64,000 nt of DNA from a virus. Below the pieces are notes generated by a model that was not told the origin of the DNA, did not search any database, and saw nothing but the letters and a program-made list of their open reading frames with translations. Below, one piece after another: positions 7,569-53,745 of the stretch. Position 1 is the stretch's first letter; each line of letters opens with the position of its first letter. The translations under genes and the position numbers were made by a program. Location of the stretch: positions 62,001 to 126,000 of IMG/VR virus record IMGVR_UViG_3300031722_000008. One strand, given 5' to 3'.

Positions 7569-10500
7569 TTACATTGCACCGCCATTGTTTACGTTTGGTT
7601 GAGGTATTGTAGATAATGTGCCTGCTGCTCCATTCACATTTTTAACTGCTTTAGAAGCTGCATCAGTAGTTGCTCCGAACATTGTATCTGTCCCTGCTTC
7701 TTTTTCTTCTTTATCTTTATCTGATTTCTTGCTAAAGTCTAACTTATCTTTATCAATAGATTCATCTAAGCATTTAGCTATCTTATAGATGTTATCGATA
7801 GTTGCTACAGCACGATTAATATCATTCTTATCAACACCTGTATCGATATTGTGATAAGTTCCATTAACCTTGAGTGCAGTTAAATCATAAGCTATCTTTT
7901 CTAATACTGGTCTTGCAAGGCTTATATCAGATACAACTTCTTTGATGTTTGGATATAAATTATTGTTATCCTCAATTATAGTTGCAAGCTTTTCAGATAA
8001 ATTATATCCGATACCTAATATTCTAGCTACATCTAAGTATTCTTCTGACTCATGTGTTTGAGCATACTTTTCAAACTTAGGTGATAACTCTGCAGTTTCA
8101 TTAGCTAATTTACCTAGAATATTTCCAGCCTTAAATACAGCACCACCTGGTGTAGCCATATTAACAACAGATTTGGTAATCATAGCTCCCATAACTGTCG
8201 AAGCCAATGTCTTAGCAATATCTAGTGGGTTTACATATTTTTGAACAATATTCTTAACTGCTCGAGTAGATACATTTGTCATTGCTCCACCTTGAAGTTT
8301 TTGAATATCTTGTGCAGTACATTCAGCTGGTATTGGGTAACTAGCTCTTGGTTCATTCTTAGCTTTGTATATAATTTCATTTAGCTTATTTCCTTGGAAT
8401 CTAAGTATTCTAAGAACAGCACGAACTTTACCCTCTTTAATTCTATTGAAGTTTTGATTTCTTAGATTAAAGAATCTTTGATTAGTATCCTTATAATCAA
8501 CAAAGACGTTGTATATGCCTACTCTTCTATCAACACATTCAACAACTACAGTGTTAAGAGCAAAGGCAACCTTTTCTACATCATAACCTGCATCATGTAA
8601 TTGATTCTTTGTATCAAACTCATTTTGGTCCTTAAAGTTAGTTGTTATAATTCCAGCAATTTTAATTACTTTTGAATGAGGATCTGCAACAACTACTTCT
8701 TTTTGAGTTCTACCTGAATAACTCATTAGTGAATTGATGATATCTTCCGATAACCCTGATTCCTTTGCTTTCGCAGTTAAGAAATCTTCATGTGATACTT
8801 GTTCAAACTTGTGTTCATCTAGAGTATAGATATCTGTGCTGTCTGAGTTCACAGTCTTTCCACTAAATAAACTGTTTGTATATCCTGAATTGATTGGCTT
8901 ACAGTTATAGTAATAACCAACAGTACTTATCTTATTTTCTCCTATTGAATTTCCATAAGATAAATTACCTATAAATCCAATGTTTAATGGGATTGTAACC
9001 TTATCGCCATTAAGTGCAAAGAAGTTATCATTATTTTGTAGAGCCCTAAGTTCTGTAGTTACAAGTTTGAAAGCTGAATCTACTTTCTTACATAAGAATG
9101 CATCTTTTTCTAAGATTTTAATTCTTCCATCGTTCGCACATACAAACTTAAACCCAGCAGTTTTTCCACTCATGAATGATGTATCAAGGTTAGATAAAAC
9201 TATTCCTGGTGTCATAGAAACTTGACCATCTTTTATTTCAGGGAATACAATAAATGTTCCATGATCGAAATGTCTTGCATCTTCAAATTTAAACTTGACC
9301 ATTTTTTCAGCATTGTCCAGGTCTTTTCTAGTAGGTGTTTGCTTTTCTTCATCAGCTGCTAATTTTTCAAGTTCATCTCTAGTATTCATGGCTGCTCTTT
9401 TATTTAAAACAAATGCAATAGTATTCATTTCTTCTTCTGTCATAGGTTTTAAACTGGCAACTTTTTCCATGATTGCATTTAAATCAGTAACGACGAAAGT
9501 TTCACCTGCATGTTTCTTGAATTGATTTCTAAGAGAGCCTAATTCTTCTAAGCCTTCGTTAGAGTGTGGTTTCTTTGTGAAATTACCAAATATTGCCTTG
9601 AAGTTATTTTTACCATCCTCAACGAAACGCTTCATGTGATCACTAGCTTCTTTATCTATATTTCCATTATCAAGTTTCATTCCGGATTCTCTTAGTATTG
9701 TTTTGACTGCATCTTCCCCATCCATTGGTGCTGGTACTGTTGACTTTTCTCTTTCAACATCTTGAAGTGCCTTATCGAATCCATCAGCTAAATCTTTTCT
9801 ATGAGAACTCCAACCAAGTCCCATAGCATCATATTCATCAGCAGATTTTTCTAATAATCCAGCTGGTGTAGGATTAGAGTTACCAATAAATTCTATTTCA
9901 CCTAACATATTTTCTGATGCAGTCTTATCTGTACCATCAGCTAAATCTTTCTTTAGATTTTCATAAAACTCATGAGTTGAAGATTTCTTTTCAGCTTTAT
10001 TTTTTGCTTGGCATTGTTCATGGAACTCTGCTTCTTTAATTAAATCGTCCAAGGTTTCGCTTGCTGACTTCAATTGAGAATGAGTATCGAATGATAAATC
10101 TCCATCTTTATTGAGAACACTTATCATTTGGTCAGTTGTTAAATCTTGGATATTCTTTTCACTGTAGTTACTAGCAGTCTTCTCTAGTTCTGTGAACTCT
10201 GATGACGCAGTGACGTATCTGCCTGACCCTGGAGTGTAACTTTGAGAATCTCTAATAGACAGCACATCTCCCATGAATCCGGGTGCTGTTGATGGATTGG
10301 TATAATCTGCCAATCCTTGGTATGGTGAGCCATCGCTTTCGCCTGACTGTTCTTTCTCAAGCTGTCTGTCTAGGTTGATTATAATTTTTTGCAGATTTTC
10401 CCTAGAATATGGAACTCTTTGGTTGTCCATTTGAATGACATCAAAAGGCTCTAAATCACCTCCATGAATCATAAAGGGAAGTTCCACTATTTTGCTTCTA

Positions 10501-10817
10501 ACCTTGACTTGTACGGCACCTGTGCCATCTTCTACGAGGTTTTTTCGCACCTTGTCAAAACTAGAGGGTATAAAGGATACACCCACTTCCAGAACTCTTG
10601 GAAAGAAAGTAAGTTCATTATACATGTATTTTCTAATAAAGTCTTCTATATTTTCTTGAGTAGGGTTATCAATATAGATTCCAGCTATCTTTTCTAAACA
10701 AGTATTTTGAACTGAACTGGCTACCTTATCTATCTTTTCGTGATCTACTGTTTCATAATCAGAAGTTAGTGCTAATGAAGCCATCATAGCTTCACTCACG
10801 TTAATTGCTCTTTTCAT
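7569..10817 (-). CDS. Large protein of unknown function, possibly virion-associated, 1082 aa
   Basis: Longest minus-strand gene of the window; AGGAGG precedes the ATG and a sigma-A-like promoter lies upstream. Soluble and acidic, with a low-complexity Ser/Gly/Tyr stretch at about 160-205, a helical middle with many EK[ILV]A and [ED]KTAS elements, a central beta-rich part (about 490-680), and a Gly/Pro/Asn-rich C-terminus (QPNVNNGGAM). A hydrophobic segment near 880-900 (LASTVMGAMITKSVVNMAT) might touch membrane. No enzyme motif was found. Size, lone position and opposite strand fit a structural or injected protein, but this is inference. Confidence 0.8.
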   Translation of the reverse strand: MKRAINVSEAMMASLALTSDYETVDHEKIDKVASSVQNTCLEKIAGIYIDNPTQENIEDFIRKYMYNELTFFPRVLEVGVSFIPSSFDKVRKNLVEDGTGAVQVKVRSKIVELPFMIHGGDLEPFDVIQMDNQRVPYSRENLQKIIINLDRQLEKEQSGESDGSPYQGLADYTNPSTAPGFMGDVLSIRDSQSYTPGSGRYVTASSEFTELEKTASNYSEKNIQDLTTDQMISVLNKDGDLSFDTHSQLKSASETLDDLIKEAEFHEQCQAKNKAEKKSSTHEFYENLKKDLADGTDKTASENMLGEIEFIGNSNPTPAGLLEKSADEYDAMGLGWSSHRKDLADGFDKALQDVEREKSTVPAPMDGEDAVKTILRESGMKLDNGNIDKEASDHMKRFVEDGKNNFKAIFGNFTKKPHSNEGLEELGSLRNQFKKHAGETFVVTDLNAIMEKVASLKPMTEEEMNTIAFVLNKRAAMNTRDELEKLAADEEKQTPTRKDLDNAEKMVKFKFEDARHFDHGTFIVFPEIKDGQVSMTPGIVLSNLDTSFMSGKTAGFKFVCANDGRIKILEKDAFLCKKVDSAFKLVTTELRALQNNDNFFALNGDKVTIPLNIGFIGNLSYGNSIGENKISTVGYYYNCKPINSGYTNSLFSGKTVNSDSTDIYTLDEHKFEQVSHEDFLTAKAKESGLSEDIINSLMSYSGRTQKEVVVADPHSKVIKIAGIITTNFKDQNEFDTKNQLHDAGYDVEKVAFALNTVVVECVDRRVGIYNVFVDYKDTNQRFFNLRNQNFNRIKEGKVRAVLRILRFQGNKLNEIIYKAKNEPRASYPIPAECTAQDIQKLQGGAMTNVSTRAVKNIVQKYVNPLDIAKTLASTVMGAMITKSVVNMATPGGAVFKAGNILGKLANETAELSPKFEKYAQTHESEEYLDVARILGIGYNLSEKLATIIEDNNNLYPNIKEVVSDISLARPVLEKIAYDLTALKVNGTYHNIDTGVDKNDINRAVATIDNIYKIAKCLDESIDKDKLDFSKKSDKDKEEKEAGTDTMFGATTDAASKAVKNVNGAAGTLSTIPQPNVNNGGAM

Positions 10818-10905: not shown

Positions 10906-10921
10906 GTATAAGATATTAAAG
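10906..10921 (+). promoter_or_regulatory. Phage promoter motif, copy 8
   Basis: GTATAAGATATTAAAG, perfect, divergent from the sigma-A-like site at 10850-10878. Confidence 0.75.
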
Positions 10922-10966: not shown

Positions 10967-11731
10967 ATGAAGACAAAACGTATCGAAGGATTGGTGAGAA
11001 AAGCTATGTTATCAAAAACAAAGGATGAGTCAGCAAGAAAAGTGGTTTACTCTGATGGAGGTAGGCTTGAAAAAACTTTAGTTAAATCAGGAATAACTAT
11101 AATTGAAGAGCATCCAGTAATTAAAAGTGAACTACAAAAAGAAAATGAGGATCTAAAAAAAGAGAATGAAGAACTTACAGAGAGTGAAGCTAATTGGTCG
11201 AAGAAATATAATGAATTACTAGGAAAATTTAATGAAAGAGGAAGAGAAGTTAGAAGTTTACTTAATAGAAATACCAATCTAGTACATGAACTTGATAGAA
11301 AAACTAAGGTAGCTAATGAGTTTGAAAGTGCATATGAGAAAAAACTTGATGAACTTGTAAGAAAAACTAAAGTAGCTAATAATCTTAATTCAAATTATAA
11401 TAAATCAATAGAGGAAGTTCATGAATTAAAGATATATAATAAACAATTAAATCTCACTAATTCTTCACTTAATTCTCAGCTAGCAAAAGCTAATAAATCT
11501 ATGCCTATTGAACTAGTAATTAAAGATGTACGTGATTTTCTACGTAATTCTACTAAAGAAGGATTGTTCAGTGTTTCTTGTGAAGGTTTGTATGAATATT
11601 ATAAAACATCTAGAAATCATATGTACTATCTTCCTGAATTAGAAACTTTCGATGCTATTATGCTACAATTTGGCTATTGCACAGTAGTTGATGATGATAA
11701 TTCATGGTTTGGATTGACTGTCGTACAATAA
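10967..11731 (+). CDS. Coiled-coil protein next to the candidate origin, 254 aa
   Basis: Start ATG 10967 with GGGAGG seven bases upstream. Residues about 45-170 are a long coiled coil with an internal repeat: ELDRKTKVANEFESAYEKK is followed by ELVRKTKVANNLNSNYNKS. The last 75 residues form a compact predicted domain (IKDVRDFLRNST, then the EGLYEYYK and YYLPELETFDAIM regions) that could be winged-helix-like. It is the last gene before the GGACAC-box array, so it is a candidate array-binding protein, but no motif proves DNA binding. Confidence 0.8.
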   Translation: MKTKRIEGLVRKAMLSKTKDESARKVVYSDGGRLEKTLVKSGITIIEEHPVIKSELQKENEDLKKENEELTESEANWSKKYNELLGKFNERGREVRSLLNRNTNLVHELDRKTKVANEFESAYEKKLDELVRKTKVANNLNSNYNKSIEEVHELKIYNKQLNLTNSSLNSQLAKANKSMPIELVIKDVRDFLRNSTKEGLFSVSCEGLYEYYKTSRNHMYYLPELETFDAIMLQFGYCTVVDDDNSWFGLTVVQ

Positions 11732-11825: not shown

Positions 11826-12344
11826 AATGGACACTTTTAAAATCAAAGTGTCCATTTTGGACTTTTCATATAATTGAGAAATTTCTAGTCCAGGAAAAGA
11901 AAAATAAAAAGTGGACAGATGGAAATAAATGGGTGTCCACAAAGTGTCCAAGCTTTTTTCTTGTCCCAAAAAGGATTCTCACTAAAAATGATGAATTTGG
12001 ACACTTTTTAGCTAAGGGTATCCCCCTTTATGTAAAAATTCTTTAAAAAAATCTTAAAATAAGAGAGAATTTAAAGGAAAAGGAGTGAATTAAAAAATTA
12101 CCCCTATATAGTTTATCTTAAAGTGTCCTAATATATATATATTATTATATTATATTATATATATATAACCTATAAGTAAGTGTCCATAAGGGTTTCCCCA
12201 AAAATGATTTACCAAATATTATCATTACTGGTGGACACTTACTGGACACTTGAGGACACCCTTATTTTTCCAAAGCAATTATTTCCTTTCAGAGAGCCAC
12301 GCCCACCATGTCCACAAGGACACTTACAGAAATTGTAAGTGTCC
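11826..12344. other. Candidate replication origin: array of GGACAC/GTGTCC boxes
   Basis: The gene-free region 11777-12505 (about 730 bp) holds twelve exact GGACAC or GTGTCC hexamers, beginning at 11829, 11848, 11933, 11944, 11999, 12123, 12180, 12233, 12244, 12254, 12318 and 12339, plus near matches at 11911 and 12309. The fuller consensus is about TAAGTGTCCA. Some pairs are 10-11 bp apart, one helical turn. Two pairs form inverted repeats: AATGGACACTTT/AAAGTGTCCATT (11826-11856) and GGACACTTAC/GTAAGTGTCC (12318-12344). A pure AT tract lies in the middle. This is the build of an iteron origin; a partition site or large operator is the alternative. Confidence 0.6.
12129..12170. other. AT-only tract, candidate DNA unwinding element
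   Basis: About 40 bases of uninterrupted A and T, largely alternating TA and ATT, between GTGTCC boxes at 12123 and 12180. Such tracts melt easily and are found in replication origins. Homopolymer-like slippage may make its exact length uncertain. Confidence 0.55.
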
Positions 12345-12505: not shown

Positions 12506-12604
12506 ATGAAAACTGTAGTAATAGGAATCATCATTTATATAGTATTGCTGATTATCACGCTAGCATTTGTGCGAGGTGCAAGTGGCAAGGAGAGCAAGGA
12601 ATGA
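12506..12604 (+). CDS. Small membrane peptide, 32 aa
   Basis: ATG 12506 with CGGAGG eight bases upstream. Residues 2-23 (KTVVIGIIIYIVLLIITLAF) form one hydrophobic helix, followed by a short charged tail (RGASGKESKE). Isolated between the candidate origin and promoter copy 9. No family recognised. Confidence 0.65.
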   Translation: MKTVVIGIIIYIVLLIITLAFVRGASGKESKE

Positions 12605-22933: not shown

Positions 22934-23242
22934 ATGGCAATAGCAAAAAAAGAAAGATTCGAAAATAAAGGAATAAAACAAAAGCTAAATATTCCAGGAG
23001 CTAATTTTCCACCAGATAAAATAACTTATGGTGATATGAAGCTAACATTTTTAGGTACCTCAAATAAAGAAGATTTATTTCCACCAAGTACTCAAGATGC
23101 TGATTTAATAAATCCAATAATGGAGGGTAATATCGGACAGTATATTTATTCGGCACCAAATGCAGACCTATATGATTTACTTATCTATAAGGATGAAGTT
23201 GATCAAATATTCTTGCATAGCATAAAAACTAGACTGCAATAA
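22934..23242 (+). CDS. Hypothetical protein, 102 aa
   Basis: AGGAGG RBS. Soluble, with Pro/Asn-rich loops and no recognised family. Confidence 0.77.
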   Translation: MAIAKKERFENKGIKQKLNIPGANFPPDKITYGDMKLTFLGTSNKEDLFPPSTQDADLINPIMEGNIGQYIYSAPNADLYDLLIYKDEVDQIFLHSIKTRLQ

Positions 23243-52938: not shown

Positions 52939-53745
52939 ATGCTAATGATGTTTGGCTCTGCTTTAAGGAGGGCACCATTTGAAAGAGCAATGCCTTTCAA
53001 TGACAGCGATTTGATGATACTTGTAAATCCAGATTATGGATTTAGATTGTGTAATATTACTACTGAAGATGGCGAAAAATTTGGGATTAAAAATTTCATG
53101 ATATCAGAAACTGAGGTTTCTGGACAAAAGCCAAAAGATATATTTGGGAAAAAGCCATTCGAAGAAAGAGTTAAAGAATTTGGTGAAATCTTTAATGGGA
53201 GAGTTGAAAGATTTTTTGAAACTGAGAAGAGCGACTATATCTTCTTTGATTTAGAGGAACAAAAATATCTAAGAAAATTAATGTCCAAAAAAGGATTGAG
53301 TTGCTCTGTTGAGATATATAAGTATCATAAAAATAAACCACCAGAAAAAATAGAGTATCTTGATTTGCCTTATGAAGAAGCAATCATGATAACTAAATTT
53401 TTATCATCGTGCAAAGTTAGAACTGTTTTAAATTGCAGAGATTATTATTATATGAACAAGGCCAATCATGAAAAAAGTAGGGAAAGGCGTTCAAAATATA
53501 GTAATTTTAATAATAAAAGGGATAGTGAAATGGAAATTCTATTCAATAGGTACAAGCAGTTAAGGGATTTGACAAGCAAAGAAAGAGTTGATAAGTATTT
53601 CAAGGCACTTACTGTTAAGTATCATCCTGACAGAGAGGGAGGTGACGCAGAAATATGCGCAACCATCAGAGAAGATTTTGGAAATATTAAGGAAGGCAGA
53701 TGGTATATAAATCTTAAGGATAAAGAGGATGGGGGCGAAAAATAA
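52939..53745 (+). CDS. J-domain-containing protein, 268 aa
   Basis: GGGAGG RBS. Residues about 215-260 hold a J-domain core: KALTVKYHPDREGGDAE has the invariant HPD between helices II and III, and IREDFGNI continues helix III. J-domains call on DnaK-type chaperones. The N-terminal 190 residues are unrecognised. Position of the domain at the C-terminus is atypical for DnaJ but common in phage and T-antigen-like adaptors. Its stop overlaps the next start by one base (TAATG). Confidence 0.78.
   Translation: MLMMFGSALRRAPFERAMPFNDSDLMILVNPDYGFRLCNITTEDGEKFGIKNFMISETEVSGQKPKDIFGKKPFEERVKEFGEIFNGRVERFFETEKSDYIFFDLEEQKYLRKLMSKKGLSCSVEIYKYHKNKPPEKIEYLDLPYEEAIMITKFLSSCKVRTVLNCRDYYYMNKANHEKSRERRSKYSNFNNKRDSEMEILFNRYKQLRDLTSKERVDKYFKALTVKYHPDREGGDAEICATIREDFGNIKEGRWYINLKDKEDGGEK

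Follow-up and report, generated by a model that had tools for sequence, protein, structure and literature searches.

To our knowledge, replication origins have seldom been mapped in large tailed phages. The lambdoid phage origin is single and lies inside the O gene, with O iterons on one side only of the A/T-rich unwinding tract that they adjoin. In herpes simplex virus (oriS and oriL) and in archaeal oriC regions with inverted ORBs, initiator boxes flank an A/T tract and there are several origins per genome. Bacillus phage SPP1 possesses two origins, oriL and oriR, each of which combines repeats with an A/T-rich DNA unwinding element (DUE), and both of which use one initiator, gp38 (PMC6316719). 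One proposal for the second SPP1 origin is that bound initiator stalls forks there and starts concatemer synthesis (PMC6316719). Here we describe an array of GGACAC boxes in a 64,000-nucleotide stretch of phage DNA, the whole of which we refer to as the window. We consider it likely that this array is one of two paired iteron/DUE replication origins in a large phage with a circular map, and an arrangement resembling that of SPP1 oriL and oriR would be the best explanation of the pair.

The first-pass annotation of the window claimed twelve exact GGACAC/GTGTCC boxes in approximately 520 bp, some of them spaced by one helical turn and two pairs arranged as inverted repeats, around an A/T tract in a gene-free region. 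Each of these features was borne out (Table 1), and no ORF-free gap in the genome is larger than the one around the array (964 bp at a 60-aa cut-off). In the window, GGACAC occurs 21 times on both strands compared to 7.5 expected per 64 kb, a count reached in 0 of 100 shuffles. Among hexamers with at least three G/C it is the most locally dense genome-wide, with 12 copies in 520 bp, whereas order-1 resamplings of the window gave at most 2 GGACAC per 520 bp, and at most 6 of any hexamer in this class. A cluster of twelve exact boxes within such a length far exceeds what chance would give. A 32-aa ORF just right of the array (window 12506-12604) encodes a putative membrane peptide and is preceded by a GGAGGT ribosome-binding site. 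The second-largest ORF-free gap (genome 51224-52012, 788 bp) is without a GGACAC array. A structured RNA at the array was considered and rejected, there being no Rfam match.

Table 1. Array 2 and its flanking genes in window coordinates.
Feature	Position	Strand
Gene for 1082-aa protein	7569-10817	-
254-aa coiled-coil protein	10967-11731	+
Array, twelve exact GGACAC/GTGTCC boxes	11829-12344	
Left palindromic box pair, GGACACTT-N9-AAGTGTCC	11829-11853	
Degenerate GGACAG box and two GTGTCC boxes 11 bp apart (11933, 11944)	11913-11949	
Left box of central inverted pair, GGACACTT	11999-12006	+
Central core: A-rich DNA, G/C runs GGGTATCCCCC (12017-12027) and TACCCC (12099-12104)	12010-12122	
Right box of central inverted pair, abuts A/T tract	12123-12128	-
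Pure A/T tract, 40 bp, presumed DNA unwinding element	12129-12168	
Box right of A/T tract	12180-12185	-
Direct triple box (12233, 12244, 12254), spacing 11 + 10 bp	12233-12259	+
Right palindromic box pair, GGACACTT-N11-AAGTGTCC	12318-12344	

The window comprises bases 62001-126000 of a 160,540-base record (G000), the ends of which have 92 bases in common and so join into a circular map of about 160,448 bases. Terminal bases are also held in common in two relatives, 123 in G001 and 127 in G007, and all three overlaps may be nothing more than an assembly effect of a circularly permuted genome. The TerL protein of G000 is approximately 30% identical to those of Bacillus phages and its major capsid protein (MCP) shares 27% identity with the MCP of Bacillus phage G. 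A genome-wide search for AAGTGTCC revealed a second array outside the window, at genome 2743-3243 and 71 kb from the one in the window; we refer to the two as array 1 and array 2, respectively. They are 74% identical over 456 bp, making them the strongest dispersed repeat of the genome, and outside them the 19 remaining GGACAC copies never exceed 2 per 520 bp. Both arrays present the same elements in the same order, namely a palindromic pair, a box pair, a central box, G/C runs around A-rich DNA, a box, the A/T tract, a box, a direct triple (11 + 10 bp) and a palindromic pair, and other contigs of this phage carry both arrays unchanged. The first-pass annotation had held that equally dense boxes elsewhere in the genome would count against an origin. 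In form a second dense array does exist, but in substance it duplicates the entire element as a paralog, which strengthens the case for an origin rather than refuting it. The duplication also bears on whether the arrays serve packaging initiation, recombination or fork stalling instead of initiation, which we regard as very improbable: one of the pair could act as proposed for the second origin of SPP1 (PMC6316719), but both copies carry the full origin anatomy, and a packaging site would not be expected to be conserved as two entire elements.

The first-pass annotation named the same array in related phages as a check on its reading. We found G001 (152,620 bases) by its palindrome pattern, and G007 (166,758 bases), G008 (168,244 bases) and others via alignment of the 785-aa gene that adjoins array 1. 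Four complete or near-complete genomes, G000, G001, G007 and G008, were compared, together with the fragments G005 and G006; G008 has no terminal repeat and its ends may therefore be incomplete. The MCPs of the four genomes are 62-72% identical, shared proteins overall approximately 22-72%, and most proteins other than MCP approximately 25-67%. Despite this distance, each of the three relatives carries exactly two arrays and no third, so that all four genomes possess the two similarly organized arrays expected of an SPP1-type origin pair. Array 1 invariably lies upstream of the 785-aa gene, the product of which is head maturation protease-like, and array 2 invariably lies upstream of the 1082-aa gene, an ortholog of which is found beside array 2 in all four. 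Fragment G005 also carries an array at the first site, while the partial contig G006 has none there. The left palindromic pair recurs at the left edge of G000 array 1 and of both G001 arrays, the direct triple in array 1 of both G000 and G001, and G/C runs flank A-rich DNA in the arrays of the relatives as well. The protease-gene loci of phage G, Vibrio phage D69 and Salmonella phage Arash are continuous runs of genes with no comparable gap. Beside array 1 of G001 lies a gene for a SpoIIID homolog (PF12116, 68 bits; L122:5863-6132, G001 83863-84132) that is absent from G000 and hints at a possibly endospore-forming host.

At 40 bp, in keeping with the length claimed for it at first pass, the tract of array 2 exceeds every other pure A/T run of the genome. 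In 60 resamplings of the window, the longest A/T run averaged 27 bp with a maximum of 40, and by itself a 40-bp run stands out only mildly in DNA this rich in A/T and is not beyond chance; its position inside the array, in both G000 copies and in the relatives, is beyond chance. In each of G000, G001, G007 and G008, the two array tracts rank first and second genome-wide for low stability of 40- and 50-bp windows, and do so even at the 46% GC of G008. Array 1 of G001 contains another A-rich run that is longer than its A/T tract but more stable. All four genomes thus have the adjacent A/T-rich, presumed unwinding element expected of an iteron/DUE theta-type origin. A gene-free region of this kind, which combines iterons with the least stable duplex in the genome, has the anatomy of an initiator-dependent origin. 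The same tracts weigh on a different function, in which the boxes would recruit a partition or bridging protein, with the two sites serving to tether or segregate the genome. Paired arrays of inverted and direct boxes could be parS-like, and a 527-aa protein at genome 42008-43591 has an N-terminal sequence that we recognized by eye as ParB-like. Nonetheless, a centromere needs no A/T tract, whereas here the tract is the least stable DNA in every complete genome, and we consider such a centromere-like or DNA-organizing role improbable.

Across nine arrays, the distances between same-direction neighboring boxes cluster at 10, 11, 20 and 21 bp (n=39, Rayleigh R 0.85; because spacings within one array are not independent, the Rayleigh p is indicative only), and the box clusters therefore have the direct copies at helical-turn spacing expected of an iteron/DUE theta-type origin. 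The box itself varies by genome, being GGACAC(TT) in G000 and G001, ATGGACAT in G007 and TTGGACA at 20-21-bp spacing in G005. Both arrays of G008 instead carry TTGGCA, in 12 and 10 copies and with no third cluster; the TTGGCAC form would correspond to TTGGACAC minus one A. Despite the different G008 boxes, the central inverted pair is 120-125 bp apart in the arrays of G000, G001 and G008. That a box change is common to two copies approximately 78 kb apart points to one trans-acting reader, encoded by the phage or by its host.

The main rival to replication from these sites is control of divergent transcription, in which a phage or host regulator would occupy the boxes, the A/T tract would be a promoter or UP-element, and both divergent gene blocks would be switched on together. 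Both arrays do lie between divergently transcribed genes. In G001 each array is followed by a promoter-like GTATAAGATAT motif, as is array 1 in G000 and G008. Moreover, the fused beta-beta' RNA polymerase encoded by G000 would require its own promoters. This protein is a single chain of 2328 aa (genome 18354-25340, L012:2354-9340, minus strand) in which beta domains precede beta' domains (Pfam Rpb2 and Rpb1). It is conserved at 38-45% identity in those relatives whose sequence covers the gene, and Vibrio phages D181, D148 and D69 are the sole named records that match it over most of its length. Against this, array 2 of G001 is inverted relative to its neighbor, meaning that orientation to the gene is not fixed, GTATAAGATAT occurs at 19 other G000 places without arrays, a sigma-70-type scan found fewer promoter-like sites at the array than in shuffles, and a 500-bp layout of 8-15 boxes around the least stable DNA exceeds what a promoter needs. 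On balance, we judge transcriptional control unlikely. The GTATAAGATAT motif, which is perhaps a phage promoter, occurs in G000 20 times on the plus strand and 0 times on the minus strand (reversed control: 1), also within leftward gene blocks, with window positions 10906, 20383, 20899, 26337, 42704, 43411 and 52341; in G008, whose map runs the other way, 4 of 4 copies are on the minus strand.

The coiled-coil protein encoded beside array 2, which had been put forward as the binder, has no homolog in relatives carrying the same boxes and no match in named phages. Pfam searches for RepA_N, Rep_3 and the DnaA C-terminal domain gave no match, leaving no initiator of a Rep_3 or RepA_N plasmid-type replicon, and Phage_rep_org_N, a Firmicute-phage initiator family, had no match over the cut-off. 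The array contains no exact DnaA box (TTATNCACA), its sole one-mismatch match being a GTGTCC box, and hence no DnaA box cluster of the kind that marks a DnaA-dependent origin. Gene families common to the four genomes number 52, none of them recognized as an initiator. Comparison of conserved unknown proteins with DNA-binding families gave no convincing match, nor did profile searches of three conserved unknown families against PDB sequences. The first candidate, by position only, is a Zn-finger family (genome 3772-4575) that adjoins array 1, or the corresponding site, in all six phages, among them G006, which lacks an array there. Further candidate families are one of 102 aa (window 22934-23242), one of 418 aa (genome 36788-38044) and a J-domain-like one (window 52939-53745). 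Alternatively, the binder may be host-encoded. SpoIIID was rejected as a binder as it is present in G001 only and not in G000, and the host factor WhiA, which has a GACAC motif (PMC3781837), would be a poor candidate, GACAC being missing from the G008 boxes. HU-like DNA-binding proteins are encoded approximately 3 kb from array 1 in G000 (L009:5887-6255) and 2 kb from it in G001 (L122:6866-7141). Outside this group, three unrelated phage contigs have GGACACTT box arrays of their own (L025:6786-7100, L043:656-1000 and L066:4750-5000), the one in L066 immediately preceding a 1310-aa gene that belongs to a replication-like gene set. By phmmer, L025/L043 and L066 have no protein in common with G000, and L043 has one weak helicase-like match to G001; these arrays possibly reflect convergence or a shared binder. 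Palindromes of GGACACTT in Streptococcus matches are sparse, and the one examined, beside a transposase-like gene, resembles the ends of an insertion sequence, so these were set aside.

Collectively, the comparative data support the replication origin proposed at first pass, through paired arrays, a kept layout, A/T tracts that rank first and second as unwinding elements, helical phasing and a concerted box change, while the binder proposed with it did not hold. From this anatomy we infer initiator binding, strand opening, use as origins and one initiator for both copies. A trans-acting initiator would bind GGACAC half-sites on one helix face on both sides of the 40-bp A/T tract, bend or wrap the region of approximately 500 bp, and melt the tract, which would allow loading of the phage helicase/primase and DnaE-type polymerase; the same initiator would read both arrays. 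G000 and its relatives encode a conserved protein, recognized by eye, that we take to be a DnaE-like polymerase, as well as a Toprim primase-like protein, indicating that these phages run at least part of their own replication. The arrays are approximately 71-78 kb apart, or 0.443, 0.487, 0.429 and 0.461 of the map in the four genomes (43-49%), and two origins so placed would shorten the distance per fork. Between 69 and 88% of coding sequence would be co-directional with forks from both sites, which only 1-2.6% of rotations equal; the location of the arrays at junctions between divergent genes in itself produces part of this agreement. GC skew, another check named at first pass, gave no consistent fork signal in the four genomes when measured at fourfold-degenerate third positions and corrected for gene strand. 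More tentatively, and with slightly less than even confidence, we suggest that this lineage of 150-170-kb phages replicates from two nearly opposite origins through an initiator of an unrecognized family, the specificity of which shifted in step with both origins, from GGACAC to TTGGCA. A single sequence criterion, that of two box arrays which each enclose the least stable duplex in the genome, finds the same two places in distant uncultured phages and turns into a directly testable question, namely whether such a phage fires two origins, and by which initiator. The box change shared by both G008 arrays offers a natural specificity swap for finding the binder among the conserved gene families.

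Among known systems, the arrays would most resemble SPP1 in having two similarly organized, here putative, origins of repeats and an A/T element in one phage genome. SPP1 differs in its size of 44 kb, in origins approximately 13 kb apart and in an oriL that lies inside the initiator gene, whereas the present arrays are several times farther apart and both intergenic, their direct and inverted boxes surround a central 120-bp core, and no initiator was recognized. As at the lambdoid origin (a related paper is PMC7466680), iterons adjoin an A/T-rich tract, but there are two arrays, both are intergenic and boxes stand on both sides. Iteron plasmid origins (Rep_3, RepA_N, RK2 TrfA) likewise place helical-turn repeats beside an A/T-rich region, and differ in that Rep_3 and RepA_N initiators and DnaA boxes are absent here and each replicon has two copies. 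The resemblance to herpes simplex oriS/oriL and to archaeal oriC would be one of layout only, the viruses and initiators being unrelated.
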